From positions 1-55,257 of the forward strand of contig CACMBV010000014.1 of the NCBI GenBank assembly GCA_902612125.1: 55,257 nucleotides of DNA, read 5' to 3'. This DNA is from an uncultured Verrucomicrobiota bacterium (GTDB taxonomy: Bacteria; Verrucomicrobiota; Verrucomicrobiia; Opitutales; Seribacteraceae). The notes under the pieces were generated by a model that ran no database searches, had not been told where the DNA came from, and saw only the letters and a list, made by a program, of their open reading frames with translations. Shown here piece by piece: positions 33,491 through 49,529 of this stretch (position 1 is the first letter of the stretch; each line of letters begins with the position of its first letter). The position numbers and the translations under genes are program-made.

Positions 33491-34231
33491 ATGCGTAACA
33501 TATTTCCTCGTTGGACGAACACCATCCCGGTTAAAATAATTGTTGCACTTAGCTTTATTGGAGGTGCAGTTACTGCGGGCATTACTTACTACGCAACTCC
33601 AAAATACACCCGGGTTGGTTATCAACCCACCCAACCGGTTGAATACAACCACGAATTTCATGCCGGGCAACTCGGTCTTGACTGCCGTTATTGCCACAGC
33701 GGAGTGGATACATCTTCTCACGCCAATGTCCCGGGAGCAAACACCTGTATGTCTTGTCATAAAAATGTAAAGGCAAATTCCCCCCTTTTAGAACCCATAA
33801 GAAACTCTTATTACGGAGAAGACACCAACAAAGACGGTCAACTTTCGGAGGATGAAGACCTCAACGGAGATGGTTTGTTGTCCGCCGGTCCTTCGGTTCC
33901 GTGGGTACGAATTCACAAAACTCCTGACTATGTATATTTCAATCATGCAATTCATGTGAATCGTGGAATAAGTTGTGTGGAATGCCACGGCAGGATTGAT
34001 CAAATGGAAGTAGTCCACCATGCGGAACCGCTGAGTATGTCCTTTTGCCTCGAGTGTCATCGCAACCCTGAGAAATCACTTCGTCCAATGGAAGAAGTAA
34101 CAAATTTAGCTTGGCATGCTCCTCATCAAGAAGGAGAATCTCACGACCTTGCTCAAATTCACGCAGGTTTGCAAATTAAAGAAAATTGGGGCGTTAATCC
34201 ACCACTTAGTTGTACGGGTTGTCACAGATGA
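33491..34231 (+). CDS. actA: ACIII pentaheme cytochrome c subunit ActA with EF-hand insertion
   Basis: This 246-residue protein is the multiheme cytochrome of Alternative Complex III, a quinol:cytochrome c oxidoreductase of the inner membrane. An N-terminal signal anchor (VKIIVALSFIGGAVTAGITY, about 14-33) leads to a periplasmic domain with five CxxCH heme sites: Cys65-His69, Cys86-His90, Cys162-His166, Cys186-His190 and Cys241-His245. This equals the five hemes known for Rhodothermus ActA. Between the second and third site an insertion holds DTNKDGQLSEDE (111-122), a textbook 12-residue EF-hand calcium loop, followed by DLNGDGLLS, a partial second loop. That insertion is not part of ActA proteins as I know them. 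The gene begins the cluster and overlaps actB by 4 bases. Confidence 0.93.
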   Translation: MRNIFPRWTNTIPVKIIVALSFIGGAVTAGITYYATPKYTRVGYQPTQPVEYNHEFHAGQLGLDCRYCHSGVDTSSHANVPGANTCMSCHKNVKANSPLLEPIRNSYYGEDTNKDGQLSEDEDLNGDGLLSAGPSVPWVRIHKTPDYVYFNHAIHVNRGISCVECHGRIDQMEVVHHAEPLSMSFCLECHRNPEKSLRPMEEVTNLAWHAPHQEGESHDLAQIHAGLQIKENWGVNPPLSCTGCHR

Positions 34232-37200
34232 TTCGGGAAAATACCAGTTCCAAAGAAATTCAAGGCAAGCAGTATTGGAAAAGCTTGGACGACTTGGCTG
34301 ACACTCCCGGTTTTCGTTCGTGGGTGAATCAAGAATTTCCTGAAGGTGCCAGCCTAATGGACGGGGTGCAAAGGAGAGGATTTCTTAAAGTCATGGCTGC
34401 TTCCTTCGGTTTGGCCGGTCTAGGCATGACGGGATGCCGTCGTCCGGAGCACGCAATCTTACCTCATGGAAAAAGTCCTGAAGAACTTATTCCCGGAATT
34501 CCCGCTTTTTATTCAAGTGCCCGCCCGTCTTCCGCTGGATTCATCCCTGTCATTGTTGAGTCACACGACGGCCGTCCTACGAAAATTGAAGGAAATCCGA
34601 GTTTTGCATCGAGCGGAGGAAGCACAGACATCTACACTCAAGCCAGTGTTTTGGATCTTTACGATCCTGACCGGGCTCAAGGCTGCTTCATTAATCGAAG
34701 TGAAACCAAGGAAGCTGAATCTTCTTCCAGCTGGAAAAAACACTCATCAGCGGATATTACCGAAAGCCTATCCAAGATAGAGAACCTTGGTCAAGTTGCT
34801 GTTCTCGCTAATCATAGCTCTTCTGTAATCAGAAATTCCCTGTTTTCCCAACTGCAGGACAAAGGCGTTAAAATTTTTAATTTCGAAGCTGTTGATTTAC
34901 TTAATCCTGAAAAAAATCTTGCTAAAATGCTCGGTGCCGAGAAATCTCTCAGAACTTTCCCCGATTTTTCGAATGCGAAAAAAGTTTTATCTCTCGATTC
35001 AGATTTTCTTGGAAACAGGGAACCTAATAGTTGCACAAATACAAAGCAATTTATGCAGGGCCGGAAGATCCACTCTCCTAAAGATTCCAAAAGAATGAAC
35101 CGTTTGTATTCTGTTGAATCTGATCTCACCATCACTGGTGGGGTTGCGGATCATCGACTTCGCTTGTCATCATCTGAAATCGAGGGTTTTACCGCCCTCA
35201 TCCTCATCAATCTCCTCCAATCATCCGGTAACCAAGATAAAAAGTTACTCGAGCACCTTTTCGAATTGTCCAGAGGTTTTGAAAGTCATGAAAAATGGGC
35301 TCAAGAATGTGCAAATGATTTACTCATAAACCCAAAACAATCGCTCGTCATCGCAGGCAGCCATCTGCCTGGTTCGGTTCATCTTCTTACTTATAAAATT
35401 AACCAGACCCTAGGTAACCAAAATACTTGTCTTCAATATTTAGAAGTAAATCACACCGCCGGAAATCTAGCATCGCTTTGTGAATCATTAGAAAATAAGG
35501 AGATAGATACCCTACTATTTATTGGTGGCAATCCGGTTTATCATTGCCCATCCGTTGAATGGACCGATTTGCTCAAGTCTGTCTCCTCCACATATCGGTT
35601 AGGTTCGGCGATTGATGAAACCTCACAAATTTGTGATTTTCATATTGGTCAATCTCATTTTCTGGAATGCTGGGACTTGGGCGAAACCTGGATTCATGAT
35701 ACCTATGTGCCCACCCAACCTTTACTGGCACCTCTTTTCGATACTCTATCTGATCTTGAAATTCTCTCCAGTTTATTCGGTAATATCAAGAAATCGTACG
35801 ATATCGTTAAGGAATATTACGAGAGCAACGCAGATATCTCAGACAATTTTGAGGATTTCCTTAAAATTGGAGTCGCAAATACCAAGCCCTCCACTCTTAA
35901 GACTCTCCCTGATGCAGATTCTGCAATTTTAAAGATTAAAAAGAGAAAGTTCGAGCTTTCGGAATCCTCCCTGGAAGTTTTGCTTACACCTGATTTCCAT
36001 ACTTGGGACGGCCAGTTCTCCAACAATGGGTGGATGATGGAATGTCCGCATCCGATCACCAAGTTGACCTGGGACAACGCGATCCTTATCAGCCCTGTAC
36101 TCGCCAAAAAATTAGAAGCGAAATACCCTGAACTTGGTCTCTTGCCCGATTCCACGATGCTTAACAAGAATGGGCAAATTGCCCCGGACACCGCAGTCTT
36201 CAAGGATGGTAAGCAAAAAGCACCTATTGTAATTTTGGATGTGGGCGATCATCACCAAATTTCAGCACCTCTTTATGTCCAGCCAGGTCTAGCGGACTAT
36301 ACCGTGGTATCCACTATTGGGCAGGGCAGGTCACGCGTCGGCCGAGTTGGGTCAGGTACCGGTTTCAATACCTGTTCGCTTTTGCATTCTGATGCTAATC
36401 GCATTAGCAGTGGAGCTTCCATAAAACCCACTGGAGAGTTTCATATTCTCGCTAATGTACAGGAGCACTGGTCCATGGAAGGCAGGGCTATAGTCCGGGA
36501 AACGAATGCAAAGTATTACGCGGAGCATGAAGATTTCGCACAGCACATGGGTTCCGAGTCACATTCACCGCCCATGTGGGGTAAAGATCAGGGAGCAAGT
36601 CTTGCGGTTAAAGCTAGTACTACCCCAAGAGGCAATTCAGCATACGAACATCCGGACCACACCTACGAACATTCTGAAACTTTTGGACGTCATCAATGGG
36701 GAATGAGCATCGATTTGAATCAGTGTACCGGATGCAGTGCCTGTGTGGTTGCCTGCCAAAGTGAAAACAACATTCCAATTGTCGGAAAAGATCAGGTATT
36801 ACGCGGGCGCGAAATGCATTGGATGCGATTAGACCGTTACTTCAGTTCAGAAGAGAGGAAAGGGGCGGAACTGCCATCCGATGTGCAAGTTTCATTTCAG
36901 GGCGTCGCTTGTATGCACTGTGAGACTGCTCCATGTGAATCAGTCTGTCCTGTTAATGCAACAGTCCATGACGAAGAAGGGCTGAACGCAATGGCATACA
37001 ATCGCTGTGTGGGCACCCGTTATTGTGCAAACAATTGTCCCTACAAAGTGCGCAGATTCAATTTTTTCGACTGGAATAAAAGAGACACCGACGAACTCTA
37101 CAAAGGTCCTCTTGGGGAGAAAAATGATTCCCTTGTCGACATGGGTAAAAATCCGGATGTTACGGTAAGAATGAGGGGGGTCATGGAAAAATGTACCTAC

Positions 37201-37614
37201 TGTGTTCAAAGAATTCAGGAGTCTAAGATTCGTGTTAAGGTTAATGCACAGAGAAAAGCAAAACTAGCAACAGGCAAGGACGGGGCAGATTTCACATTGG
37301 AGGAAAAGGATTTAAAAGTTCCTGACGGTACCATCAAGACCGCCTGTCAGCAAGTATGTCCATCCGATGCCATTGCATTTGGAGACTTAAGTGATCCTGA
37401 AAGTGTAGTGAGTAAATTAAAGAACAACCCTCGGGATTACTCTGTTTTGGGATACCTGAATACCCGTCCTCGAACCACTTTTCTGGCTAAAGTTCGTAAT
37501 CCCAACCCCAATATGCCGGATTACAATAAAAAACCGCACGCCTACCGTGAATACAGCGACAAAGCTTACCCTGCAAAAAAGGATAAATCTAAAATGGAGA
37601 GCCAATCCTATTGA
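34228..37614 (+). CDS. actB: ACIII iron-sulfur/molybdopterin-like subunit ActB
   Basis: This 1,128-residue periplasmic subunit fuses a molybdopterin oxidoreductase-like domain (about 70-760) with a C-terminal four-cluster ferredoxin-like domain (about 820-1060). The twin-arginine signal is [17 protein letters not shown] (Arg49-Arg50), followed by a lipobox-like GMTGC with Cys70. FeS ligands are visible in [12 protein letters not shown] (from Cys833), [14 protein letters not shown] (from Cys895), [21 protein letters not shown] and CQQVCPSDA. The first domain carries no molybdenum in characterised ACIII. The ATG at 34228 overlaps the actA stop by 4 bases and is preferred over a TTG six codons earlier. 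Like its homologues it should hand electrons between quinol-site subunits and hemes. Confidence 0.95.
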
Positions 37615-37616
37615 TC

Positions 37617-39029
37617 ATGGCAACGGTTAGCGAAAAAACTGAAGCACCCGCTATTCTGGCTAAGATAAAGCCAGCACCATGGAAAGACGCCCCCCTTGTA
37701 GAAAATCGTAGGTCCTTCCATTGGGTTACTGAAAAGATTTGTGGCATCGTCGAGTCCAAGACCCCAACTTGGTGGTGGTGGTGCTTTATCACTGCACTTT
37801 CCATTGCCAGTTTTACAGGTATGGGATTAGTGTACCTTGTTTCAACTGGTGTTGGGGTTTGGGGAAATAACAACCCTGTTAATTGGGGTTGGGCCATCGT
37901 AAATTTTGTTTTTTGGATTGGCATTGGACATGCCGGAACTTTGATTTCCGCCATTCTTTGTCTACTCAAACAAAAGTGGAGAACTTCAATCAATCGAGCA
38001 TCCGAAGCCATGACTGTTTTCGCAGTGCTCTGTGCCGGCATTTTCCCTCTCTTTCATGTTGGCAGGGTGTGGTTTGCTTGGTGGCTTTTCCCCATTCCCA
38101 ACGCAAATGCGATATGGCCACAATTTCGAAGTCCTTTGGAATGGGATGTTTTCGCCGTTTCCACCTACGCCACAGTTTCCATACTATTTTGGTACATGGG
38201 CATGATCCCCGATCTTGCGGTCATCCGTGACCGGGCTAAGGAAACTTGGAGAAAGTACTTTTACGGCATCCTCTCCATGGGATGGAGAAATGCTAACAAT
38301 CACTGGAGAAACTTTGAAATGGCTTACCTTCTGCTGGCAGGTCTTTCCACCCCTTTGGTTCTTTCCGTTCATACTATCGTTTCCTTTGACTTCGCCGTAG
38401 CCAACTTGCCGGGTTGGCACACGACCATTTTTCCTCCTTATTTTGTTGCTGGTGCTATTTTTTCAGGATTCGGAATGGTGCTCACTCTACTTCTTCCCGT
38501 TCGTGCTATGTATGGACTGCACGATCTGATTACTCAAAAACACATTGATAATATCTGTAAAATTACATTGGCGACTGGCAGTATGGTTGGTTATGCCTAT
38601 TCCATGGAATTCTTTATTGCCTGGTATGGAGCAAATCCATACGAGGGGTTTGCTTTCATCAATCGTGCTTTTGGCAATTACTGGTGGTCATATTGGATCA
38701 TGGTTTCCTGTAATGTTATTTGCCCGCAGTTATTCTGGTTTAAGAAAATTCGGGAAAATACACCTCTGGTTTGGATAATATCTATTTTTGTGAACATCGG
38801 GATGTGGTTTGAAAGATTTGTTATTGCTAACACAACCCTCTCTCGTGATTTTCTTCCTTCAAGCTGGGGATATTACTCGCCAACTGTCGTTGACATCTTC
38901 ACTTTCTTCGGCACTTTCGGCTTCTTTTCAGTTCTCTTTCTTCTTTTTCTAAGGTTCCTCCCTCTTATGCCCATGGCGGAAGTAAAATCGGTTATGCCCC
39001 AAGCGGACCCACACGGAGGTAAGCATTGA
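37617..39029 (+). CDS. actC: ACIII quinol-binding NrfD-like membrane subunit ActC
   Basis: This 470-residue integral membrane protein belongs to the NrfD/PsrC family with about ten helices. Recognisable segments are [20 protein letters not shown] (first helix region), [20 protein letters not shown] with the conserved His, [40 protein letters not shown] and [17 protein letters not shown]. In ACIII this subunit holds the quinol oxidation site. The ATG at 37617 begins 2 bases after the actB stop; a TTG two codons earlier is less likely. The C-terminus is short and ends HGGKH. Spacing to actD is 6 bases. Confidence 0.95.
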
Positions 39030-39035
39030 TAATTT

Positions 39036-39587
39036 ATGAGTACGGTCATGGACATTAAGTATGGTATCTCGGCCACCTTTAATTCGGCCAAAGATATATA
39101 TATAGCGGCAGGAAAAGTCCGTGATAAGGGATACAATAACTGGGAATGTTACACCCCAATTCCAATCCACGGGTTGGATGGGCAGATGGGATATCCAAGA
39201 TCCAAGGTGCCCTGCTTTACTCTCGCTGGTGGTATAACTGGATTTTTTACGGGTATGCTTATTGTTTGGTACATGAACTCCTTTGATTATCCTCTAATTG
39301 TTGGGGGCAAACCCTATTTCAGTCCAATTTTTCCGTTTCCAGTCTTTTATGAGTTAACCATCCTTTTCGCTGCCTTCGGAACTTTATTTGGGATGTTTTT
39401 TCTGAACCGTTTGCCTCGACACAACCACCCCATCTTTGAACACAAAGGTTTCGGAAGGACTGGTGATGATAGGTTTATGATCGTTATTGAAGTGGAAGAC
39501 CCTCAATTTGATGAGCAAGAAACCGAATCTTTTTTGAAGGATCTCGGTGGCAAATCTGTTAACATTATTCGCGAACCCATTGATTAG
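39036..39587 (+). CDS. actD: ACIII membrane subunit ActD (DUF3341)
   Basis: This 183-residue protein matches the DUF3341 family. The N-terminal cytoplasmic part contains YGISATFNSAKDIYIAAGKV and WECYTPIPIHGLD; two membrane helices follow at about 60-82 (FTLAGGITGFFTGMLIVWYM) and 101-123 (FPVFYELTILFAAFGTLFGM); and the C-terminal part, FMIVIEVEDPQFDEQETESF, is typical. It is a structural subunit of ACIII with no cofactor. It sits between actC and actE with 6 and 0 bases between genes, as in other ACIII operons. Confidence 0.93.
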   Translation: MSTVMDIKYGISATFNSAKDIYIAAGKVRDKGYNNWECYTPIPIHGLDGQMGYPRSKVPCFTLAGGITGFFTGMLIVWYMNSFDYPLIVGGKPYFSPIFPFPVFYELTILFAAFGTLFGMFFLNRLPRHNHPIFEHKGFGRTGDDRFMIVIEVEDPQFDEQETESFLKDLGGKSVNIIREPID

Positions 39588-40253
39588 ATGAGATTTTTCA
39601 TTCCGATTTTCTTCGTACTGGTTGTCACTATTGTCTCAATTATGGGATTCCGTGGCGATTTCACAGAAAACACTCCTCTAGAAGTTTTTCCGGACATGGA
39701 CAGACAGGCCAAATTCAAGTCGCAGACACAAAATAATTTATTTGGTGACAAAAAGGCAGATCGCCTGCCTGTTCCAGGAACCGCGATTCGTGGTACCGCC
39801 GTTGAACTGAGTAATGTATTTTTGGAAAAGCCTTCCTTCCACACCTTAGCCTTTAGAACTGGTAAAAACGAGGATGGGTCCTGGGTTCAACAAATACCTG
39901 ATGAGGCTTCAGTTGATATGTCGCTCATGCGTTTAGGCAAAGAAAGGTATGGTATCCATTGTTCCGTTTGCCATGGAGAATATGGAAATGGACAGGGTGT
40001 TATTTCTCAATTTGGACTCGCTCCCAGAAACCTTTCGGATTCTTCAAATTCAGGCACTTATTTAGAATCCGCGGCACCTTGGTCAGATGGCCAGATTTTT
40101 CACGCGATCAGCATGGGTTCCGCATCTGGAATTATGTTAGGACTTAAGGATAAACTTTCACCTAAAGAAAGATGGGCCATCGTACTTTATGTACGAGCCC
40201 TGCAGTCATATGTTAGCAATGCAACCGATCAAACTCTATCAGCAAGCAAATAA
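39588..40253 (+). CDS. actE: ACIII monoheme cytochrome c subunit ActE
   Basis: This 221-residue subunit has an N-terminal anchor (FFIPIFFVLVVTIVSIMGF), then a periplasmic domain with one heme site, HCSVCHGEYGNGQG (Cys at about 123 and 126). The segment RLPVPGTAIRGT just after the anchor is characteristic of ActE. SMGSASGIMLGL follows, where Met is the likely axial ligand, and the domain ends in KERWAIVLYVRALQS. It passes electrons out of ACIII. The ATG directly follows the actD stop. No lipobox is apparent, so it is anchored by the uncleaved helix. Confidence 0.93.
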   Translation: MRFFIPIFFVLVVTIVSIMGFRGDFTENTPLEVFPDMDRQAKFKSQTQNNLFGDKKADRLPVPGTAIRGTAVELSNVFLEKPSFHTLAFRTGKNEDGSWVQQIPDEASVDMSLMRLGKERYGIHCSVCHGEYGNGQGVISQFGLAPRNLSDSSNSGTYLESAAPWSDGQIFHAISMGSASGIMLGLKDKLSPKERWAIVLYVRALQSYVSNATDQTLSASK

Positions 40254-40258
40254 TTGCA

Positions 40259-41566
40259 ATGAGTGCTCTAGTTAAGGAAGATACTGAATCAGGATTTGAT
40301 TTGCAGACCAAACTTTTGGGCGGAACCTTACTCGGATTGGGAGTTGGTTTAATTGGTTTACTGTACGGTTTGGCATCTGGAGACAAGAGCCCTTTTCTCG
40401 GCTGGCTTTGGGCTTCATCCTTCTGGTTAAGCATAGCCATTGGGCTGTTGATGTTAATTATGATTTTTCGGATCTTCAATTCTCGCTGGACTCCCATAGT
40501 CCGCAGACAGCAGGAACATGGTCTCGCTGCATTTCCTTGGCTGGGTTTATGTCTTCTTCCTTTGTTGCTTGTTGGATGGGTGGGCGGAGACCAGTCGGGC
40601 ATACTCTGGACTTGGATTAACCCTGAGGCTCAAACAATTGAAGCACTTAGTGTAACCACCGTATCTGAAGATGTGCTTCACCAGAAAAAAGCGGGTTATC
40701 TCAACCTCGGCTTTTTTACCCTTAGGCTTATCGCTTATTTTGGGATATTTTGTGGACTAAGTTACTGGCTTAGAAAAGTCTCCTTTAATCAGGATAAAGA
40801 TGGTGATCCGATGTGGTCACACATGGGTATGAAAATTTCTGCGGCTGGTATCCCAGCAGCTGCCTTAGCCCTAACCTTTGGTGCTTTCGATTTGTTTATG
40901 AGCCTTGAATACCAATGGTTTTCGACTATGTACGGGGTTTGGTATTTTGCTTCGGGCATACGATCTGCCCTTGCAGTCACGATTATTGCTTGCTTTTATC
41001 TTTCTTCCAAGAAGCGGGTCTTAGATGGAATCTACAAGCAAGCTCACCAGTACGACCTCGCCTGCCTGTCTCTCGCATTCACTGTTTTTTGGGCCTACAT
41101 TAGCTTTTCTCAATATTTCCTCATCTACAGTGCCAATATTCCTGAAGAAACTTTTTGGTATGTAATCAGAGAAATCAATCCAAACACTGGCGAGCAGTCA
41201 GGGTGGTTTTGGGTTAGCATGGGACTAATTTTTGGTCACTTTTTCTTTCCTTTTCTCTATCTACTTTTCTATCAAAATAAAGTAAACGGTCCCCGTCTCG
41301 TCTTCATTGTTTCCTGGATTCTTGTTTTCCACCTGCTCGATTTATATTGGAACATCATTCCAGGGCGTGAAATCTCTCCCGGTGCCTATGTAGGGTACGA
41401 AGCTCGTCCAGTATTAGGCACGCATTTAATCTGGGGTCTCTTCAGTTTTGTCGGCATTGGATGTCTATGTTCATGGAGTGTAGTTAAGAGTTTTACTTCT
41501 CAATCCGCAGAAATAATTCCGATCCGGGATCCAAGGATTTTGGATTCTCTTCACCATCATGAGTGA
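40259..41566 (+). CDS. actF: ACIII membrane subunit ActF
   Basis: This 435-residue polytopic protein has about ten hydrophobic helices and is the second large membrane subunit of ACIII, distantly related to ActC. Landmarks are LLGGTLLGLGVGLIGLLYGL (first helix), IFNSRWTPIVRRQQE, LNLGFFTLRLIAYFGIF, AFDLFMSLEYQWFSTMYGVW and FSQYFLIYSANIPEETFWY, all in positions usual for ActF. It lacks a quinol site in characterised complexes. The gene overlaps the next small gene by 8 bases (ATGAGTGA), which suggests that the small gene belongs to the complex. Confidence 0.92.
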   Translation: MSALVKEDTESGFDLQTKLLGGTLLGLGVGLIGLLYGLASGDKSPFLGWLWASSFWLSIAIGLLMLIMIFRIFNSRWTPIVRRQQEHGLAAFPWLGLCLLPLLLVGWVGGDQSGILWTWINPEAQTIEALSVTTVSEDVLHQKKAGYLNLGFFTLRLIAYFGIFCGLSYWLRKVSFNQDKDGDPMWSHMGMKISAAGIPAAALALTFGAFDLFMSLEYQWFSTMYGVWYFASGIRSALAVTIIACFYLSSKKRVLDGIYKQAHQYDLACLSLAFTVFWAYISFSQYFLIYSANIPEETFWYVIREINPNTGEQSGWFWVSMGLIFGHFFFPFLYLLFYQNKVNGPRLVFIVSWILVFHLLDLYWNIIPGREISPGAYVGYEARPVLGTHLIWGLFSFVGIGCLCSWSVVKSFTSQSAEIIPIRDPRILDSLHHHE

Positions 41567-41843
41567 TTCTGATTTGAACAAAGCTGACGGTTGCGACATC
41601 TTCTTTTCGCTACTTATTGTTATTTTATTGCTTGCAGGTTTTTTTATCTTTCAATCGGTCACTGAACCAGATCAACCTCTGGAAGTGGACAATAAAACTA
41701 CAAAAACCAGAATGGAGAAAATCGCCAAGCACGAAGCGATTGACTCAGTATACAATTTAACAATCGATACTTTTCATATGGACAATAATTCCTCTATGGA
41801 AAAAGTGATGTCCCAAGTTATCAATCAATACACAGGAAAGTGA
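41559..41843 (+). CDS. Small single-helix membrane protein between ActF and CcoN-like subunit
   Basis: This 94-residue protein has one N-terminal helix (IFFSLLIVILLLAGFFIFQS, about 15-34) and a polar C-terminal part of about 60 residues without Cys or heme motif. The polar part contains charged helices (KTRMEKIAKHEA) and Asn/Ser/Met-rich residues (FHMDNNSSMEKVMSQVI). Its ATG overlaps actF by 8 bases and its stop overlaps the CcoN-like start by 4 bases, so it is translationally locked between the two membrane complexes. It resembles neither CcoQ nor CcoS. A linking or assembly role between ACIII and the following subunits is an inference from position alone. Confidence 0.7.
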   Translation: MSDSDLNKADGCDIFFSLLIVILLLAGFFIFQSVTEPDQPLEVDNKTTKTRMEKIAKHEAIDSVYNLTIDTFHMDNNSSMEKVMSQVINQYTGK

Positions 41844-43237
41844 AGAAAAATCCAGAACAAGAGATCGACCAGTCTGCTAGGTTTGCATTCTCTTTCTTCG
41901 TGGCTTCGGCAGGCTTATGGCTATTAGCCGCCGCATTGCTTGCTTACATTGCTGCTGCTAAACTTACTGATCCTCTTTTCTTATCATCATTGGAATTTTT
42001 CACATACGGTAAAATCAAAGTTTCTCAGGCAAATGCTTTTGTCTATGGATGGGGGGGGAATTCTATTTTTGCAGTAAGTTTGTGGATTATTGCCAGATTG
42101 TCCCAATCACTGGTTCGCGGATCAATCTTTCTCATTTTTGCCGGAGCGATTTGGAACTTATCGATAACCTTTGGCCTACTCGGAATATTAGATGGTCACA
42201 TGTTGGGACACGAACTGCTTGAAATGCCAAAACAAGTTTGGCCCGCTCTGCTTGTTTCTTATTTAATCATCGCATTTATAATTTTTGTGGTATTCAGGAG
42301 TCGCAAGCAAAAGGTTACGATCGCCCCGCAATGGTTTATCATTGCTGCACTGATTTGGTTTCCCTGTCTTTTTTTGTTTGGATGGAGCGGATTGGAACTT
42401 AATCCTGGTCGTGGAACCCTGCAATCAATCCTTTCCATATGGTTTGGCCAAAATGTTATTTGGTTATGGTTAACACCCGTGGCCCTAGGATGTGCCTACT
42501 ATATCATACCCTCTGTTTTAAACCGTCCGATTGATAAATACTACCTGGCAGTTTTTGGTTTTTGGTGCATTGCCGGGCTTGCTCCCTGGTCTGTGGTCCA
42601 TCATTTGGAGGGGGGACCCGTTCCGATGTGGGTTCCTGCCATCGGTACTGTGATGAGTATCGCAATGGTCTTCCCAATTGCAGTCGCCTCAACTAATTTT
42701 CATTCCACGGCTTTTCAGGATGTCTCCAAGGTATGGAATTACTTGCCCTTACGTTTTGTTATTTTCGGTACATTGTCCTATACCATTTCCAGCTATATTG
42801 GAGTCATTTTTTCATTGCCAGCGGTAGCTAAACTTACCCAATTTTCAATCATCAATGAATTTCATTTCAATCAGCGAGTTTATGGTTTCTTCAGTATGAT
42901 AATCTTTGGGATTGTTTATCATATTCTTCCGCAGATTACCGGTAGGGAAATCGGAACTGCCGCTAAAAACTTTCACTTTTGGACATCCGCCTTGGGAGTT
43001 TTCGCACTTTTACTAGCCTATTTGGTTGGTGGTTTAACTCATGGAGTTTTAGGGCAACAACCTTCTCTAGCCTGGGCAACTGTGATTGAATCCGTCAAGC
43101 CATATTTCCTGATAACTGAATATGCTTTCCTCATCCTAGGATTTTCCCAGCTCGTGTTTGTACTCAATTTATGGAAAGTCCTTGTACCAAATCCCTTTGC
43201 ATCTTCCGATCGTCAAGCCAATCTTAAGACCGCCTGA
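41840..43237 (+). CDS. CcoN-like heme-copper oxidase subunit I lacking several metal ligands
   Basis: This 465-residue membrane protein of about twelve helices aligns throughout with cbb3 oxidase subunit I (CcoN). In hand alignment to Pseudomonas stutzeri CcoN, the low-spin heme b ligands are replaced: His60 by Gln63 (KVSQANAFVYGWGGN) and His347 by Asn344 (EFHFNQRVYGF). The CuB ligand His207 is replaced by Gln204 (WFGQNVIWLW), and the Tyr251 cross-linked to it by Ala248. The other CuB pair (His254-His255 in WSVVHHLEGG) and the high-spin heme ligand (His342) remain. So it may bind one heme but is unlikely to be a normal oxygen reductase. The start is GTG at 41840, overlapping the small gene; the end overlaps the next ATG by 1 base. 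The family call is sure, the activity unknown. Confidence 0.88.
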   Translation: MKKNPEQEIDQSARFAFSFFVASAGLWLLAAALLAYIAAAKLTDPLFLSSLEFFTYGKIKVSQANAFVYGWGGNSIFAVSLWIIARLSQSLVRGSIFLIFAGAIWNLSITFGLLGILDGHMLGHELLEMPKQVWPALLVSYLIIAFIIFVVFRSRKQKVTIAPQWFIIAALIWFPCLFLFGWSGLELNPGRGTLQSILSIWFGQNVIWLWLTPVALGCAYYIIPSVLNRPIDKYYLAVFGFWCIAGLAPWSVVHHLEGGPVPMWVPAIGTVMSIAMVFPIAVASTNFHSTAFQDVSKVWNYLPLRFVIFGTLSYTISSYIGVIFSLPAVAKLTQFSIINEFHFNQRVYGFFSMIIFGIVYHILPQITGREIGTAAKNFHFWTSALGVFALLLAYLVGGLTHGVLGQQPSLAWATVIESVKPYFLITEYAFLILGFSQLVFVLNLWKVLVPNPFASSDRQANLKTA

Positions 43238-44376
43238 TGAATAATATATTTAAATTTTCCATTTATATTTTCCTGACCTTGTCCTTTGCTTGGTTAGCCT
43301 TTGTAGTCGGTGCCACAAACCAGTACGGTGACCTTGAGCCGACTGCTGAGAGTCTGGAAGAGGATGGTTCAATACCTCCCGACGCTGAATTATTTCCCAA
43401 ATCCATGGCAGGTATTGCTCAGCTTGGAGCCAAAGAATACCTCTCACTCGGTTGTGCCACTTGCCACACCCAACAAGTCCGTTCCGAGGAAGCAGGCTTC
43501 GATGTTGAAAGAGGGTGGGGCAAAAGACCTTCGGTTCCACGCGACTACATTCTTCAAGAGGAGGTTTTGCTAGGCCATAATCGGGTTGGCCCGGACTTGG
43601 CAAATGTTGGCATGCGCGAATATTCAAGCGAATGGCTTCACAAACATTTGTTTATGCCTCAATCGGTGGTTGAAGGGTCAATCTGTCAGCCCAGCCCTTT
43701 TCTCTACGAGGAAAACAAAGAAGCTTCAGTGGATTCCATAGAAATCACTAACGGAGAAACCAACATTTTTATTAAACCATCACTACGAGCAAATCGAATT
43801 GTAGCTTATCTTGAGTCTTTACATCAGAATTATGAACTACCTGAAATTGCCTTCAGCGATATTCTTGAAGAAGACCAATCTGTAGAGATTGCTTCCGCAG
43901 TTGCCGAGCCTGAAACAATCGCAACGGCCTTTCCTTCATGGTTATCTGAACAAATGGAGTCAGGCAAAGAAATATATATGAAAGTAGGCGCCGGTGGTGG
44001 ATTATGCTACACATGCCATCAAATTAACGGTCAGGGTATTCCCGGCGCATTTCCACCCCTGACCGGTTCTGACTGGGTGCTTGGGGACAAAGAAAGACTT
44101 ATCAAATTATCTATCCATGGTCTTATGGGGGAAATCGAAGTTAACGGCGAAAAATATAACGGAGTTATGGCTGGTTTTGGGATACAAGCAGGAGGTCCCC
44201 CTTTGAACGATCAGCAAATAGCAGATGTACTCACCTACATCAGAAACGATTGGGGAAATTCGGCTTCTGCAATTTCTCCCGAGGAAGTCGCGTCCGTTCG
44301 AAACTCTGTTAAAGACCGTGCCCCAAATCAGATGTGGACGGCAGCTGAATTGCAAAGTAATAGTTCTCCCGATTAA
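43237..44376 (+). CDS. CcoO-like / cytochrome c fusion protein
   Basis: This 379-residue diheme protein has an N-terminal anchor (about 6-24). A CcoO-like domain follows with heme site GCATCHTQ (Cys73, Cys76, His77), then PRDYI, GPDLANVG and WLHKHLFMPQSVV. Where CcoO has its axial Met (S-I-M-P), this protein reads EGSICQP, so Cys150 stands at the Met position. A linker of about 60 acidic residues leads to a second class I cytochrome c domain (about 235-350) with GGLCYTCHQINGQG (Cys257, Cys260, His261) and a normal axial Met311 in GVMAGFG. Standard cbb3 clusters have CcoO and CcoP as separate genes, so this fusion replaces both. It begins at the last base of the CcoN-like stop codon. Confidence 0.85.
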   Translation: MNNIFKFSIYIFLTLSFAWLAFVVGATNQYGDLEPTAESLEEDGSIPPDAELFPKSMAGIAQLGAKEYLSLGCATCHTQQVRSEEAGFDVERGWGKRPSVPRDYILQEEVLLGHNRVGPDLANVGMREYSSEWLHKHLFMPQSVVEGSICQPSPFLYEENKEASVDSIEITNGETNIFIKPSLRANRIVAYLESLHQNYELPEIAFSDILEEDQSVEIASAVAEPETIATAFPSWLSEQMESGKEIYMKVGAGGGLCYTCHQINGQGIPGAFPPLTGSDWVLGDKERLIKLSIHGLMGEIEVNGEKYNGVMAGFGIQAGGPPLNDQQIADVLTYIRNDWGNSASAISPEEVASVRNSVKDRAPNQMWTAAELQSNSSPD

Positions 44377-44385
44377 TTGTATCTT

Positions 44386-45060
44386 ATGAGTAAGGAAAAT
44401 CAGACGAGCGAAGAAATCCGTTCTTCCGGAATGAAAGATGATGAATTGGTAAACAAGCATGTTCGTTTAAATCAAATCAAACACGAACCTACCAAAGGTT
44501 TTCTCCAAGCACCGCTTATCTTTGTTTTCGTATTTGGGTGCCTCATTTTTGTCTGTTCTATTCAACTTGCTCACACCACCAATGACTTTCAGCTACACCC
44601 TCCCAAAGAAATAGTCGAATTAACCCCTGAAGAGAAAGAAGCACTTCGTCTTGATAGAAAAATTAGCTCAGGAGAAAAGATTTTCGCGGTGAGATGTGCT
44701 TCTTGTCATCAAGGGAATGGGTTAGGTATTGCTGGTCAATATCCTCCCTTAGCCGGCTCCAAATGGGCTACTGCAAACCCTGAAATCATCACCAATATCA
44801 TTCTCAAAGGCTTAAAGGGAGAGATAGTTGTGAAAGGGGAAACTTATGGTACTTCCGCTGCGGTTAACATGGCTGCCGTAGCTATCAATGATCGCGAAAT
44901 CGCAAATGTTGTTACTTATGTGAGGCAAGCTTGGGGTAATGATGCCAATGAAGTTTTTGAAGATGAAGTTGCTTCCACCCGTGCTGGCTCGGTTGAACAA
45001 CAAGATCAATGGACTGGAGATCAATTGATTTCTATGTACCCAGATTCATTCTCCAATTAA
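44386..45060 (+). CDS. Membrane-anchored monoheme cytochrome c
   Basis: This 224-residue protein has a cytoplasmic N-terminus of about 45 residues, one membrane helix (APLIFVFVFGCLIFVCSIQL, about 45-64), and a periplasmic cytochrome c domain with RCASCHQGNGLGIAG (heme) and a likely axial Met in AAVNMAAVAI. The C-terminal domain is homologous in layout to the second domain of the previous protein (both end WGN..., EEVAS or DEVAS, and a Trp-containing tail), suggesting duplication. The ATG at 44386 is preferred over a TTG three codons earlier. It may carry electrons from ACIII towards the CcoO-like domain or out to another acceptor. It is the last gene before a 56-base gap. Confidence 0.85.
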   Translation: MSKENQTSEEIRSSGMKDDELVNKHVRLNQIKHEPTKGFLQAPLIFVFVFGCLIFVCSIQLAHTTNDFQLHPPKEIVELTPEEKEALRLDRKISSGEKIFAVRCASCHQGNGLGIAGQYPPLAGSKWATANPEIITNIILKGLKGEIVVKGETYGTSAAVNMAAVAINDREIANVVTYVRQAWGNDANEVFEDEVASTRAGSVEQQDQWTGDQLISMYPDSFSN

Positions 45061-45116: not shown

Positions 45117-46430
45117 GTGTGGCCTGTTGTTTTCAAAAATATCCGAAGTGCTTTCCTCACCTTAACTCTTTGTGGGTTGTTTGAAGCAACAGGGAATGTA
45201 GAAGATCATTTCACTGAACTCACCGAAATTTTGGAAAAACTGGAAGAAAATTCTCCCGTTCTTATTGAAAAAAATTTCTTAATTCAGGAGCAACTTGGGA
45301 ATCAAATGGTGGCCGATTCTGCGAAAGGGTTTTCCCTCTCTATCAATCTTTCGTCACAATCCATTCATGAAGACAGACCAGAGCAATCATTCTACCACCG
45401 ATACCGGTCCTTTGGTTCCATCTACGCAAGAAAACCCTTGTTTCACTGGGGTGCATTGGACGCAAAAAGTAAAATTGCCTCAAGGAAAACTGAAATAACC
45501 AAATTAGCTCATAATGAAGCGGTTTTAGATATTACATCACAATCACGTCACTTATATTTGGATCTACTGCTTCTTCATAAAAAAGCCCAAGTCAAAAAGG
45601 AATCATTGGTCATTGAACAGGAATCTCTCAAACGACAGGTGAAACAGAAAAAACTTGGCCTAAGTTCCATTCTCGAAGTAAGTGAATCAAATGCATCCCT
45701 TTTGCAAAATGAACTACTCTTAGCTGACTTGAAACAAGCTTTCAGTCATTCGGTCAATCAGTTTAGATCCATTACAGGCTGGGAAGGTAATTTGACTTTT
45801 GAAGACCAAAACAAATCGATTCAGGAATTTCTTTCCGCCCAATTTCTTGAAGAGAAAACGCCAGACATGATTGCAGGGATTTCATCAGGAACGATCAAAA
45901 AAATAGAGAATGAAATTGAAATTGAAAAAAATAATTTAACTATAGCAAGCAGCCAATTAAAACCAAAATTAAATATCATTGGCGGATTTTATCAGGATCA
46001 AGTTGCCCTTGCCAGCAACGAAGGTAGTTTACTCCGAAATAATGTGACAATTGGTTTGGAGGCAAACTGGGCAATTTGGGATTCTTCCAGAAGTAATGGT
46101 CAAAAAAGTGCCGCCTTGGCTCGCAAGCGAAGCCTCGAATTCGCACTTCAAAGGGAATTGAAAAGTTTCCGTTTTTACATTGAAAACTTAAGGCAGAATC
46201 TCCTCTCCACTGCTAATCGTATTGAATTAAGCAACAAGTTGATGGATGTTGCCCGAAGTCGTTTTGAAACAAGCAGAATTGAATTCGAAGCAAACCGCAT
46301 AAGTCTGAACCGGCACTTGGAGGCTAAAATTGCCCTGGACAAAGCAAAAATCAATCAATTGGAATCAATTTGCCAATATCTTAAAACAAAAGATCTTTAT
46401 TTTAAAGCAATCGAGAAAAACCATGAATAA
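45117..46430 (+). CDS. TolC-like outer membrane efflux protein
   Basis: This 437-residue protein has an N-terminal signal-like region (FLTLTLCGLFEATGN) and the long helical repeats of the TolC family: residues 130-230 (LYLDLLLLHKKAQVKKESLV) and 310-420 (FYIENLRQNLLSTANRIELS, MDVARSRFETSRIEFEANRI). These alternate with beta stretches such as NIIGGFYQ and TIGLEANWAIWD. It should form the trimeric outer-membrane channel of a tripartite exporter. The start is GTG at 45117. Its end overlaps the membrane-fusion gene by 8 bases (ATGAATAA). It follows the last respiratory gene after only 56 bases, so read-through from the respiratory cluster is possible. Confidence 0.82.
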   Translation: MWPVVFKNIRSAFLTLTLCGLFEATGNVEDHFTELTEILEKLEENSPVLIEKNFLIQEQLGNQMVADSAKGFSLSINLSSQSIHEDRPEQSFYHRYRSFGSIYARKPLFHWGALDAKSKIASRKTEITKLAHNEAVLDITSQSRHLYLDLLLLHKKAQVKKESLVIEQESLKRQVKQKKLGLSSILEVSESNASLLQNELLLADLKQAFSHSVNQFRSITGWEGNLTFEDQNKSIQEFLSAQFLEEKTPDMIAGISSGTIKKIENEIEIEKNNLTIASSQLKPKLNIIGGFYQDQVALASNEGSLLRNNVTIGLEANWAIWDSSRSNGQKSAALARKRSLEFALQRELKSFRFYIENLRQNLLSTANRIELSNKLMDVARSRFETSRIEFEANRISLNRHLEAKIALDKAKINQLESICQYLKTKDLYFKAIEKNHE

Positions 46431-47568
46431 ATCAAACATAATAAAAAGGCCCGCAAAAGCCGTTTTAGTTATGGCGGGAATTGGCTTGATTATGATCTTT
46501 GTTCAAATAGCCCGGATGCAACTAAGGCGCGATGCTGTTGTTAATTTGGTTGAAAAAGGTAATATTCTCGACTCCGTTAGTGGAAATGTAAAAGTACTGG
46601 CTGCACTCAGCTTTCAGCTACTTTCTGAAACTCAATCCAAGATACGATATACAGCATTGATTCCATTTGGAAAACCCATTCCGGTCGATGAAAATCAAAC
46701 CATTTTTCTGATGGAGACATTTGATCTCGATCGGAGTTTAGAAAGAACGCAGCTTTCCATTTCTTCTCATCAAAAAAGATTGGAAACCGGTTCTGTCATT
46801 GAGTTACAACTTGAATTAGAGGAAAAAAATCTCATTGCTTTGCAAAACATTTTCAAGGAAAACGGGGATGATTTATCCGAGTTTGAATTAGAGTCAAAAA
46901 CTAACCTGGTAGGTCGGTTAAGAAGGCAATACGAATTCGAGAAAATCAGCAATGAAGAAACCTCACAGGCGTTAACTTTGGAAGAAGGCGGGACCAAGGA
47001 AGCTTTAAAAAAACGCAAAATCGTAAGTCCGATCAAAGGAACACTGGTTTACTCAAGGGTCAAAAAAGGGGATACTGTCTTTAGTGGGCAATTATTGGGT
47101 GAAATTCAGTCTCATGAAAGATTGATTGAGGTCACACTTAATGAGGAAGATTTTTCCGGAATTGAAGAGGGCCAAAGAGTGGGTGTTACGATTTTTTCTT
47201 TTGGAAACGAAATTTTCGAAGGGGAGGTTAGTAGACTCTCTACAAGTGTAGATCCTACCACTGGATACCGAAAGCTCTATGTGGAGTTAGATACAAATAG
47301 AACTTTACCAGTGGGTGCATCCGGAAGAGCGGAAATCATTAGGCAAGAAATTCAAAATACTATGATCATTCCCAGAAAAGCACTGCTTGGAAATTCAGTT
47401 TTTGCCGTCCGTAATGGAAAAGCCACTCAAATCAATGTCGTGACTGGTGCCAAAAATATGGAGCATGTGGAAATAATAAAAGGATTAAAAATAAATGACC
47501 ATGTGATATCGGAAGCCCCTCATCTTTTTTATGACGGGGAACAGGTAAGCTCTATCATTTTGGAATGA
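46423..47568 (+). CDS. Periplasmic membrane-fusion protein (HlyD/MacA type)
   Basis: This 381-residue adaptor has an N-terminal membrane helix (AVLVMAGIGLIMIFVQIARM, about 13-32), a helical hairpin (about 105-185, DRSLERTQLSISSHQKRLE), a lipoyl-like motif with IVSPIKGTLVYSRVKKGDTV (about 206-225), beta-barrel stretches (IEVTLNEEDFSGIEEGQRVG) and a final membrane-proximal domain (MIIPRKALLGNSVFAV). It bridges the inner-membrane ABC unit and the TolC-like channel. The ATG at 46423 overlaps the TolC-like stop by 8 bases; an upstream in-frame start within the TolC gene is unlikely because it lacks a signal or anchor at its beginning. Confidence 0.85.
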   Translation: MNKSNIIKRPAKAVLVMAGIGLIMIFVQIARMQLRRDAVVNLVEKGNILDSVSGNVKVLAALSFQLLSETQSKIRYTALIPFGKPIPVDENQTIFLMETFDLDRSLERTQLSISSHQKRLETGSVIELQLELEEKNLIALQNIFKENGDDLSEFELESKTNLVGRLRRQYEFEKISNEETSQALTLEEGGTKEALKKRKIVSPIKGTLVYSRVKKGDTVFSGQLLGEIQSHERLIEVTLNEEDFSGIEEGQRVGVTIFSFGNEIFEGEVSRLSTSVDPTTGYRKLYVELDTNRTLPVGASGRAEIIRQEIQNTMIIPRKALLGNSVFAVRNGKATQINVVTGAKNMEHVEIIKGLKINDHVISEAPHLFYDGEQVSSIILE

Positions 47569-47583
47569 TTGTAAAGTAAAGAG

Positions 47584-48834
47584 ATGAAATCTCTAAACCT
47601 AGAATTAGCGTGGAGGTTTGTGCTTGGAAGGAAGCGTGCCATGACCATGAGTCTGTTAGGGATTGTTTTGGGAATATCCTTTTTTGTCATCACCCAGGCA
47701 CAGACTTCTGGATTCGAAGCTTTTTTCATTAGAACAATCCTTGGTACCAATGGGGCTATCCGTATTTCAGACCGTTTTCAGGATATGCATGGAACGGTGC
47801 GAAGTTCATCCAAAGATGGCAGGACCAAATTTCTGTTTAATTCAAGAGAAGGTGCGAGGTACACCGAAGGTATTGAAAACCCGGTTCTTTTACGAAATGC
47901 TCTAGATCATTTTCCTCAAATTTCAGGTATTTCAGAAATTCTGCAAGGAAATGCCGTTTTGAGTGGAACTTCCAGATCCCAAACTGTTGAAGTTCATGGG
48001 ATTGATCCATCGGAACATATGATGGTTTCTGATCTCGAAAATCAGATCGTTCAAGGTCAACTCAATACATTTGATTTACAACCCAAGTCTGTTCTGCTAG
48101 GAAATCGGATTGCCCAGCGTCTTCTGTTACAGGTTGGTGAACGAATAACGCTCCAAGGAGGAACCGGGAATATCCAATTACGCATTGCCGGAATTTTTGA
48201 GACGGGAGTAAGCCAAATTGACAAAAGCCGCGTTTATATTCACTTGCCCATTGCCAGAGCTTTCCTCGGTAAAAGATTTTCAGGTTCAATCTTCCAGCTC
48301 TCCATGTTTAACCCTAAAAAAGCTCCCGAGATTTCTGCACAAATTCAGGAAACAACATCTCATCGCGTAATAAGCTGGCAGGAGCGTGAGCAAGTGTGGC
48401 TCGATGTGTTCAAAGCTTTGCGTATCTCATCAGCAATTACGGTTTCCAGCATTCTTCTGCTCTCCGGCTTGGGAATTTTTAATGTATTTGCCATCATGGT
48501 AATAGAGAAAACTAGGGATATTGCAATTTTGCGGTCCATGGGATTTAAACCATCAGACGCATCAGCCGTATTTCTTTGGCAGGGTGGAATTGTTCTTACA
48601 GTCGGCATTATACTCGGAACGATTGTGGGTATCCTCGCAACCTACACAATTTCGAAAATTCCTCTCAGGATCCGAGGTATATTCTCCACTGACAGCTTCA
48701 TGGTAAACTGGGATATTGCTCATTATGCTTGGGCAATTCTGATTTCAATTGTGTTTGTTTCAATTGCTAGCTTGATTCCGGCAAGAAGGGCAGCAAAGAT
48801 CGAACCTGCCAAAATAATCAGGGAAACGCTTTGA
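47584..48834 (+). CDS. ABC transporter permease (FtsX/MacB/LolC type)
   Basis: This 416-residue permease has the four-helix FtsX layout: an N-terminal helix (AMTMSLLGIVLGISFFVITQ, about 19-38), a large periplasmic domain (about 60-270) and three C-terminal helices (ITVSSILLLSGLGIFNVFAI, AVFLWQGGIVLTVGIILGTI, AWAILISIVFVSIASLIPAR). The ending PARRAAKIEPAKIIRETL is a family hallmark. With the preceding adaptor and the TolC-like channel it forms a mechanotransmission-type exporter. The stop overlaps the first base of the ATPase ATG. The substrate, whether peptide, macrolide-like compound or lipoprotein, cannot be predicted. Confidence 0.88.
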   Translation: MKSLNLELAWRFVLGRKRAMTMSLLGIVLGISFFVITQAQTSGFEAFFIRTILGTNGAIRISDRFQDMHGTVRSSSKDGRTKFLFNSREGARYTEGIENPVLLRNALDHFPQISGISEILQGNAVLSGTSRSQTVEVHGIDPSEHMMVSDLENQIVQGQLNTFDLQPKSVLLGNRIAQRLLLQVGERITLQGGTGNIQLRIAGIFETGVSQIDKSRVYIHLPIARAFLGKRFSGSIFQLSMFNPKKAPEISAQIQETTSHRVISWQEREQVWLDVFKALRISSAITVSSILLLSGLGIFNVFAIMVIEKTRDIAILRSMGFKPSDASAVFLWQGGIVLTVGIILGTIVGILATYTISKIPLRIRGIFSTDSFMVNWDIAHYAWAILISIVFVSIASLIPARRAAKIEPAKIIRETL

Positions 48835-49529
48835 TGAATGATCGTGTATTGCAAAAACCCCTCATTCAAGCCACGAACCTCTTCCACTCTTTTAGCGAGG
48901 GTGAAGAGACCGTTCATGCCTTGCGAGGAATTTCACTGGAAGCCCATGCGGGAGAAGTGACCGCGGTTGTTGGTCCATCCGGTTGTGGTAAAAGCACTCT
49001 GCTCTATTTGCTTGGATTATTAGACCGGCCAGATCATGGGGAGATCCATCTTGAGGGGGAATCTGTTGCTCAAGCAAGTGATCAAAGACGCACTTTTCTT
49101 CGGAATCAAAAGCTCGGTTTTGTTTTTCAATTTCACTTTCTAATCAAGGAGCTCACAGTCTGCGAAAATGTTGCCCTTCCTCTTAGAAAAGCGGGAGTGC
49201 CCTTAAAAACCGCAACCAAAAGAGCAACCGAAGTCCTCTGTAAACTTGGCTTGGAGGATAAATGCAAACGATTTGCCAATAAACTATCAGGTGGTGAACA
49301 GCAAAGGGTGGCAATTGCCCGTGCTTTGGTCCATTCTCCGGCTCTCCTTGTGGCCGACGAACCAACGGGTAATTTAGACAGTACCAATTCGGAAAAAGTG
49401 TTTGAGCTCCTGCTTAAATTCGCACTAGGAGAAAAGATCGCGGTAATTCTGGTCACACACAATCCCGAACTTGCACAAAAATGCAATCGGATTCTGAGAA
49501 TGAAGGATGGGCAAATGATTAAGAATTAG
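48834..49529 (+). CDS. ABC transporter ATP-binding protein (LolD/MacB type)
   Basis: This 231-residue ATPase has Walker A GPSGCGKST (about 44-52), the Q-loop in KLGFVFQFHFLIKELT, the signature LSGGEQQRVAIARAL, Walker B LLVADEPTGNLD and the switch His in ILVTHNPELA. The GNLD ending after Walker B and the short length are typical of LolD/MacB ATPases that pair with FtsX-type permeases. The ATG at 48834 shares its first base with the permease stop; an ATG 4 bases downstream is out of frame. It closes the four-gene exporter set; 109 non-coding bases follow before the convergent djlA-like gene. Confidence 0.92.
   Translation: MNDRVLQKPLIQATNLFHSFSEGEETVHALRGISLEAHAGEVTAVVGPSGCGKSTLLYLLGLLDRPDHGEIHLEGESVAQASDQRRTFLRNQKLGFVFQFHFLIKELTVCENVALPLRKAGVPLKTATKRATEVLCKLGLEDKCKRFANKLSGGEQQRVAIARALVHSPALLVADEPTGNLDSTNSEKVFELLLKFALGEKIAVILVTHNPELAQKCNRILRMKDGQMIKN

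Follow-up and report, generated by a model that had tools for sequence, protein, structure and literature searches.

The 55,257-nucleotide stretch of contig CACMBV010000014.1 from an uncultured Verrucomicrobiota bacterium (the whole stretch analysed, here the window) carries, directly behind the ActABCDEF genes of an alternative complex III (ACIII), a gene for a protein with the fold of CcoN, subunit I of cbb3 oxidases, followed by genes for a CcoO-like protein and a cytochrome c. The CcoN-like protein lacks both ligands of the low-spin heme b, one CuB ligand and the cross-linked tyrosine. To judge from these residues, this pseudo-CcoN is almost certainly non-catalytic; it most likely has, with strong support from the alignments, neither a low-spin heme b nor a working heme b3-CuB site. 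The explanation we consider best overall, and probable, is that a former oxidase subunit I now serves as a membrane scaffold for the cytochromes c that link ACIII to a distinct aa3/caa3 oxidase.

Fold and metal sites of the CcoN-like protein

The frame at 41840-43237 (plus strand, 465 amino acids) is open from a GTG start that overlaps the previous stop, and its product matches PF00115 at 138.5 bits. On the TIGR00780 ccoN model it scores 114.7 bits, far under the cut-off of 583; the four intact ACIII-linked CcoN proteins tested all likewise fail this cut-off (236-253 bits). Residues 23-450 align by phmmer with P. stutzeri CcoN (3mk7 chain A; E 5.7e-30), whose numbering is used here for residues 60, 207, 251, 257, 258, 345 and 347, and five distinct solved cbb3 subunit I sequences align with the protein at E values of 1e-31 to 1.2e-24. 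An AlphaFold model built from a 14-row alignment (predicted local distance difference test score, pLDDT, 91.0; predicted template modelling score, pTM, 0.91) superposes on 8smr_E and 3mk7_A with a template modelling score (TM) of 0.90 and a root mean square deviation of 2.1-2.3. The end-to-end alignment with cbb3 subunit I from which the original prediction started is thus confirmed. The cbb3 CcoN structures (3mk7, 8smr, 9g6b) share the full fold with the window protein at TM 0.88-0.90 and 21-22% identity in structural alignment, and a CcoO-like cytochrome partner is present in both systems. NorB of the cytochrome c nitric oxide reductase (cNOR) shares the superfamily fold, at TM 0.78-0.82 of the query; unlike the window protein, NorB retains the low-spin heme ligands.

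What sets the protein apart from cbb3 CcoN is the state of its metal sites. The low-spin heme ligands His60 and His347 are replaced by Gln63 (CAG, 42026-42028) and Asn344 (AAT, 42869-42871), the CuB ligand His207 by Gln204 (CAA, 42449-42451) and the cross-linked Tyr251 by Ala248 (GCT, 42581-42583), all on the plus strand. On the same strand the counterparts of CuB ligands 257 and 258, His254-His255 (CAT CAT, 42599-42604), and of the heme b3 ligand His345, His342 (CAT, 42863-42865), are retained. The original prediction had listed these four losses and three survivals from a hand alignment; phmmer, MAFFT and the codons agree on the losses, as do alignment and codons on the survivals. The window protein further shows W203->I, R57->K and R437->T, and keeps E122 and E125. 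R437 is an arginine thought to bind a heme propionate. W203 is a tryptophan by the active site (PMC3578206). All three positions are changed in 26 of 26 full-length rows of the window's family (W203 to Ile, Met or Leu, R57 to Lys, R437 to Thr or Ser) and retained in 38 of 38 rows with intact CcoN.

The pattern is fixed in the window's own family (f1), from which 29 loci were read besides the window. It recurs in 27 of them (25 exactly; L042 has also changed H257 to N, and L110 is cut before residue 60), and the remaining two, L096 and L097 of genus g77, have lost all seven cofactor residues. Together with the in-register motif anchors, this rules out an alignment slip or a sequencing error, the former already judged less likely in the original prediction.

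Could the protein still be an oxidase, with other residues as ligands or with the true ligands hidden by a shifted alignment? The family has a few new histidines that might serve: His120 (codon 42197), His124 (42209) and His401 (43040) are conserved in 24, 25 and 26 of 26 family rows. H124 and H401 occur in none of 38 intact rows, and position 401 is Gln in 36 of those 38; a new metal site at H120, H124 and H401 is possible. In the model, however, H120 and H124 lie in the stretch that separates predicted helix 95-117 from predicted helix 131-153, with H401 close to where helix 373-405 ends; these histidines are uncommon in the other 43 degenerate rows, in which the window's His columns alone were scanned; and the motifs around each cofactor site are in register in both phmmer and MAFFT. 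We regard continued oxidase activity as very improbable.

An all-or-none pattern across the order and class

The survey covered the window's own phylum. An unbiased order sample of 177 genomes contained 104 that match P0001, and 101 of these were read (G009 and G057, with fragments only, and G076, with a fused CcoNO, were left out). Their 101 ACIII-linked CcoN divide into 47 intact and 54 degenerate. A larger set adds 16 f1 loci, 23 named loci and 35 order or class loci, giving 165 loci with an upstream region, 163 of them non-redundant; nine intact loci with short flanks (L020, L023, L024, L025, L027 and L029-L032) belong to the 101 and not to the 165. Excluded before counting were the second copies L057 and L060, 26 of 49 named loci that repeat f1 loci (L195-L220), and L275-L279, intact CcoN of another class that lack the ACIII arrangement. 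Because a partly degenerate query retrieved L172-L194 and a degenerate profile the class loci, sampling of the larger set favours degenerate forms and its counts are not frequencies.

Among the 163 non-redundant loci 41 keep all seven cofactor residues, 122 keep none to four, and none keeps five or six; 64 residue patterns are found in all. H258 is the residue most often kept by the degenerate proteins (64/122), Tyr251 the least (1/122). Act genes lie upstream of CcoN at 161 of 165 loci, the exceptions being L110, L145 and L189, at contig ends, and L274, which has other genes there. Of 25 loci read from other orders in the class, only L251 (family f36) is intact; the other 24 are degenerate. 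Substitutions of the kind seen in the window, which the original prediction proposed to seek in homologues beside act genes, are therefore recurrent, in 27 of 29 loci of the family and 122 of 163 overall. The original prediction had also offered a new branch of the heme-copper family tied to ACIII. As a branch it is not new, ACIII with a C-type oxidase being a known arrangement; that catalytic sites have repeatedly been lost inside it is the part that stands.

Several loci merit separate mention. L252 (3423-4922) and L253 (1270-2778), both of family f31, keep both low-spin heme ligands and have lost the b3 ligand, all CuB histidines and Tyr251; their residues suggest a possible one-heme, electron-relay version of CcoN. 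The ACIII-linked CcoN of L162 (G135:C1) is degenerate, reading QQQQRHG. The second copies L057 and L060 are intact and stand apart from ACIII, in genomes (G035 and G024) whose ACIII-linked copy is degenerate. In genome G268 (L274, L305) an ABC ATPase, and no Act gene, is found directly upstream of the degenerate CcoN module; strain IT6 has a nos cluster inside its ACIII cluster (PMC11102522), and a similar insertion may explain this arrangement. Verruconatronum alginivorum has ActABCDEF followed, by locus numbering, by 'Cox I-IV, caa3 (2)' (PMC13274419), which from its place could be an equivalent module under another name.

A second line of evidence comes from ccoS, the position of which is directly before CcoN in intact relatives. 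With a CcoS model built from six adjacent genes found by PF03597, and a search window of 900 bases before CcoN, a CcoS-like gene was found at 41 of 41 intact loci (the six model seeds included) and at 0 of 124 degenerate loci. The window itself is outside the 124; unlike cbb3, its module has no ccoS beside the CcoN-like gene, and the gap before it holds a gene of 94 codons without family match. PF03597 itself, searched in 32 chosen genomes, has a match immediately ahead of CcoN in 9 of 10 intact cases (not in G079), five of the nine matches reaching the Pfam cut-off, and in 0 of 22 degenerate ones. In R. capsulatus CcoS is needed for the heme b, heme b3 and CuB of CcoN, and in its absence the CcoNOQP complex still forms but is inactive (Koch 2000; Kulajta 2006; both via PMC8267372). 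The absence of ccoS is independent of how the ligands are read, and points the same way, towards predicted loss of the cofactors. CcoG (TIGR02745) is uninformative on the ACIII-linked forms because its strong matches are limited to 4 of the 32 genomes, those chosen for a fused CcoNO, of which two have an intact ACIII-linked CcoN and two a degenerate one.

The cytochrome genes have stayed. With CxxCH motifs summed per locus rather than gene by gene, two cytochrome genes follow CcoN at 121 of 124 degenerate loci, carrying two to three motifs between them, and a single gene with one motif follows at three; the 41 intact loci comprise 38 with two genes and two motifs, two with one of each, and one that ends before the cytochromes. 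Of the roles suggested in the original prediction, that of a non-catalytic scaffold for c-type cytochromes agrees best with the data, as a scaffold tied to ACIII: fold, operon place and CxxCH motifs have been kept, and the cofactor residues and ccoS have gone. We judge it reasonably likely that pseudo-CcoN is such a scaffold or bridge in apo form.

Loss of ligands on this scale might also signal a decaying pseudogene, and CcoN has indeed diverged faster after ligand loss: median identity to an intact panel is 0.368 for degenerate proteins (n=50) against 0.625 for intact ones (n=29; p 2e-13), and the Act subunits barely differ between the two groups (0.498 for degenerate loci against 0.516; p 0.03). 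Decay is nevertheless scarcely credible. No frameshifts were seen: every degenerate locus read has an open frame of at least 461 codons, apart from L110, where the contig stops after 325. Between the window and eight relatives nonsynonymous divergence (dN) of CcoN is low, at 0.07-0.19; it is reported alone, with no dN/dS ratio, because synonymous sites are saturated (proportion of differences, pS, 0.77-0.89). Operon and fold are kept as well, and the earlier view that the intact frame argues against decay holds.

Trees of CcoN (95 rows, ligand columns removed) and of ActC-F from the operons that carry those CcoN (88 rows) were compared. The CcoN tree needs three state changes, all of them required by its starred branches: a genus of f10 within intact f10, a genus of f24 within intact f24, and a large group that includes the window. 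The ActC-F tree has ten, again forced by starred branches, with for example L143 (degenerate) sister to L128 (intact). A single origin of all degenerate CcoN is rejected on either tree. Three losses is the safe minimum, and there were perhaps ten.

The module and the proposed onward path of electrons

The module is a plus-strand run at 33491-45060, with several starts overlapping the preceding stop in the mechanical open-reading-frame list (41840, for example, lies inside the end of 41559-41843). Its first gene (33491-34231) encodes what we take to be ActA, the pentaheme c-type cytochrome of ACIII, with five CxxCH motifs, Pfam multiheme matches and a conserved first place; the second (34210-37614), presumably ActB, the molybdopterin-like/4Fe-4S subunit, has Fer4 matches and its place in the conserved gene order. 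There follow ActC, the NrfD-like quinol-site subunit (37611-39029; PF03916, 83.5 bits), ActD (39036-39587; PF11821, 214 bits), and ActE, a monoheme cytochrome c (39588-40253; motif CSVCH, PF13442/PF00034). The membrane subunit ActF (40259-41566) has no Pfam or NCBIfam match and is named by its place, at which relatives have homologues. Between ActF and pseudo-CcoN, at the ccoS position of intact relatives, lies the gene of a 94-amino-acid single-helix protein (41559-41843), with no family match in Pfam or NCBIfam scans. Its homologues do not match the CcoS model and, among the loci read, are confined to genera g1-g3 of the window's family; these genera have both this gene and a fused CcoO, and g77 has neither. 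Behind pseudo-CcoN are a CcoO-like monoheme domain fused to a second cytochrome c domain (43237-44376; CATCH and CYTCH, PF02433 at 57.8 bits, PF00034) and a monoheme cytochrome c (44377-45060; CASCH, PF00034/PF13442) whose hydrophobic N-terminal stretch suggests that it is probably membrane-anchored. Fusion and monoheme cytochrome together have three CxxCH motifs, a division of three c hemes that differs from the CcoO plus diheme CcoP of cbb3. After the module, at 45117-49529, come genes for an outer-membrane efflux protein, HlyD and a MacB-like ABC system, which are found behind it across family f1, genus g77 included, wherever the stretch reaches that far.

A separate oxidase is at hand. The window genome has two PF00115 matches, the pseudo-CcoN gene and a CtaD on contig C8, where the genes read, by their motifs, as a caa3 set of SCO1, CtaB, CtaC (with CxxCH and a CuA motif), CtaD (ligand motifs present), CtaE, CtaF and CtaG. 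In the order sample 53 of the 54 genomes with a degenerate CcoN have a further PF00115 match, and of the five genomes read in which the ACIII-linked CcoN is the sole PF00115 match four (G005, G010, G079, G143) are intact, the fifth being G037. In other orders CtaD stands directly behind the degenerate module, in 8 of 9 loci of f29, 6 of 6 of f33 and 5 of 5 of f30 (19/20), and the frames that follow it read, in longer stretches, as COX3, a small subunit and COX2. CtaD is further downstream in f37 (degenerate) and f36 (intact), and absent from the downstream stretches read in f35 and f31. When five f30 genomes were searched for a further, intact CcoN, scores stayed at or below 34 bits. Loci in which the degenerate module directly precedes aa3 genes (f29, f33, f30) include L291-L295, L298, L299, L301, L302 and L305, all with Act genes ahead except L305.

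Because the window genome has this caa3 set, and aa3 genes directly follow the module elsewhere, we infer a path to a separate oxidase. Electrons would pass from menaquinol through the iron-sulfur centres and c hemes of ACIII to the CcoO and cytochrome c hemes on pseudo-CcoN, and from these to caa3/aa3. The 12-helix body (the count is from the model), having ceased to be an oxidase with the predicted disappearance of low-spin heme b and the heme b3-CuB site, would still anchor the CcoO-like protein and membrane-anchored cytochromes c to ACIII; an ancestral ACIII-cbb3 unit would several times have lost its catalytic, oxidase half and kept the docking half. The ACIII-aa3 supercomplex of Flavobacterium johnsoniae (Sun 2018, as cited in PMC8498564 and PMC8361435), in which ACIII passes electrons to aa3 in one assembly, resembles what is proposed here, but in contrast to the window module no CcoN-like module between ACIII and aa3 is described in the available parts of these two papers. 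A different use of the membrane body, with the former proton route of pseudo-CcoN now serving ACIII in ion translocation, would fit the kept membrane fold and the close coupling to the ACIII genes. Proton uptake by oxidases is, however, driven by active-site chemistry, and that chemistry is lost here; we think this role quite unlikely. Whether ACIII pumps protons is itself still debated (PMC8498564).

Several observations weigh against a bridge made of apo-protein. Docking of pseudo-CcoN on ACIII is predicted from gene order and homology. The window genome is 64% complete. The further PF00115 matches of degenerate genomes are profile matches, not each confirmed as a whole gene, and one such genome, G037 (91% complete, about 410 contigs), has none. 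The absence of ccoS concerns adjacent genes, and at three of the 124 loci (L110, L145, L189) the sequence extends little or not at all upstream; a whole-genome PF03597 search is weak, returning nothing for G135 and G013, both of which carry a CcoNO and ccoG, or for intact G079. The number of losses differs between the two trees, and the approximately unbiased (AU) test on the CcoN data rejects a single f13 clade, which the Act tree would lead one to expect (p 0.001). Long-branch attraction is a likely source of this conflict, given that degenerate CcoN have diverged more quickly than the proteins encoded beside them; CcoN may also have been exchanged between operons. Lastly, the b3-type set is close to invariant in the window's genera, unlike most other degenerate lineages: H342, H254 and H255 are kept in 26, 25 and 26 of 26 full-length family rows. 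Some binding of metal or heme may thus persist in this family.

Residual b3-type heme binding is the main doubt for the window's own family. In its fullest form, also put forward in the original prediction as a one-heme protein with new chemistry, a high-spin heme would sit on H342 and a metal on H254/H255 together with Gln204, making a gas-binding or sensing site that lacks the low-spin heme. The retained trio and the family-specific histidines 124 (25/26), 401 (26/26) and 120 (24/26) speak for such a site. The weight of the trio is tempered by the 221 of 440 columns that are invariant in these genera anyway. Moreover Tyr251, His207, W203 and Arg437 have gone and no ccoS is adjacent, L042 has lost H254, the sister genus g77 (L096, L097) has lost all seven residues, and other lineages retain the operon without counterparts of H342, H254 and H255. 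A one-heme protein is accordingly an unlikely alternative to the cytochrome-holding bridge, if somewhat less so than a role in ion translocation.

Predicted cbb3 oxidases of Verrucomicrobiota

Opitutaceae and verrucomicrobial methanotrophs are known to have a C-type oxidase encoded next to ACIII (Refojo 2010, cited by PMC8498564), with the gene order, and in the lineages, of the window module. In the available parts of the published accounts the neighbour of ACIII is treated as a working cbb3; here 54 of the 101 order-sample genes, and L272 and L273, lack cofactor residues. A CcoN without ligands beside ACIII is unreported in the literature searched, which excluded Refojo 2010/2012 and most subscription papers, so that an earlier mention is possible. 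L272 and L273 belong to genomes G330 and G241, apparently Methylacidiphilum Kam1 and SolV (a putative identity). Their ACIII-linked CcoN has S, V, F, E, S, H and S at positions 60, 347, 345, 207, 257, 258 and 251; the AlphaFold model of L272, although weaker (pLDDT 79), has cbb3 CcoN as its closest structural match (TM 0.77-0.82 of the query). Neither genome yielded a further CcoN, the best TIGR00780 match being one of 28.5 bits in a CtaD-like gene. The Kam1 genome paper places a cbb3 oxidase beside ACIII and sees it as in keeping with the high affinity of SolV for O2 (PMC6688271), and PMC8498564 and PMC10205796 likewise count a cbb3 oxidase in these bacteria.

For the class as a whole, we put at about even the chances that ACIII-linked cbb3 oxidases, that of Methylacidiphilum included, were stripped many times independently (at least three times, perhaps at least ten), each together with its ccoS, and turned into fixed bridges to aa3/caa3. 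CcoN-like genes tend to be counted as high-affinity terminal oxidases in genome surveys. Such predictions would be wrong for 54 of 101 genes of the order sample and 24 of 25 loci of other orders, and the link drawn between the ACIII-linked cbb3 and the O2 affinity of SolV (PMC6688271) is among those affected. Two questions become testable: how ACIII passes its electrons on, and what value an oxidase body has without its chemistry.

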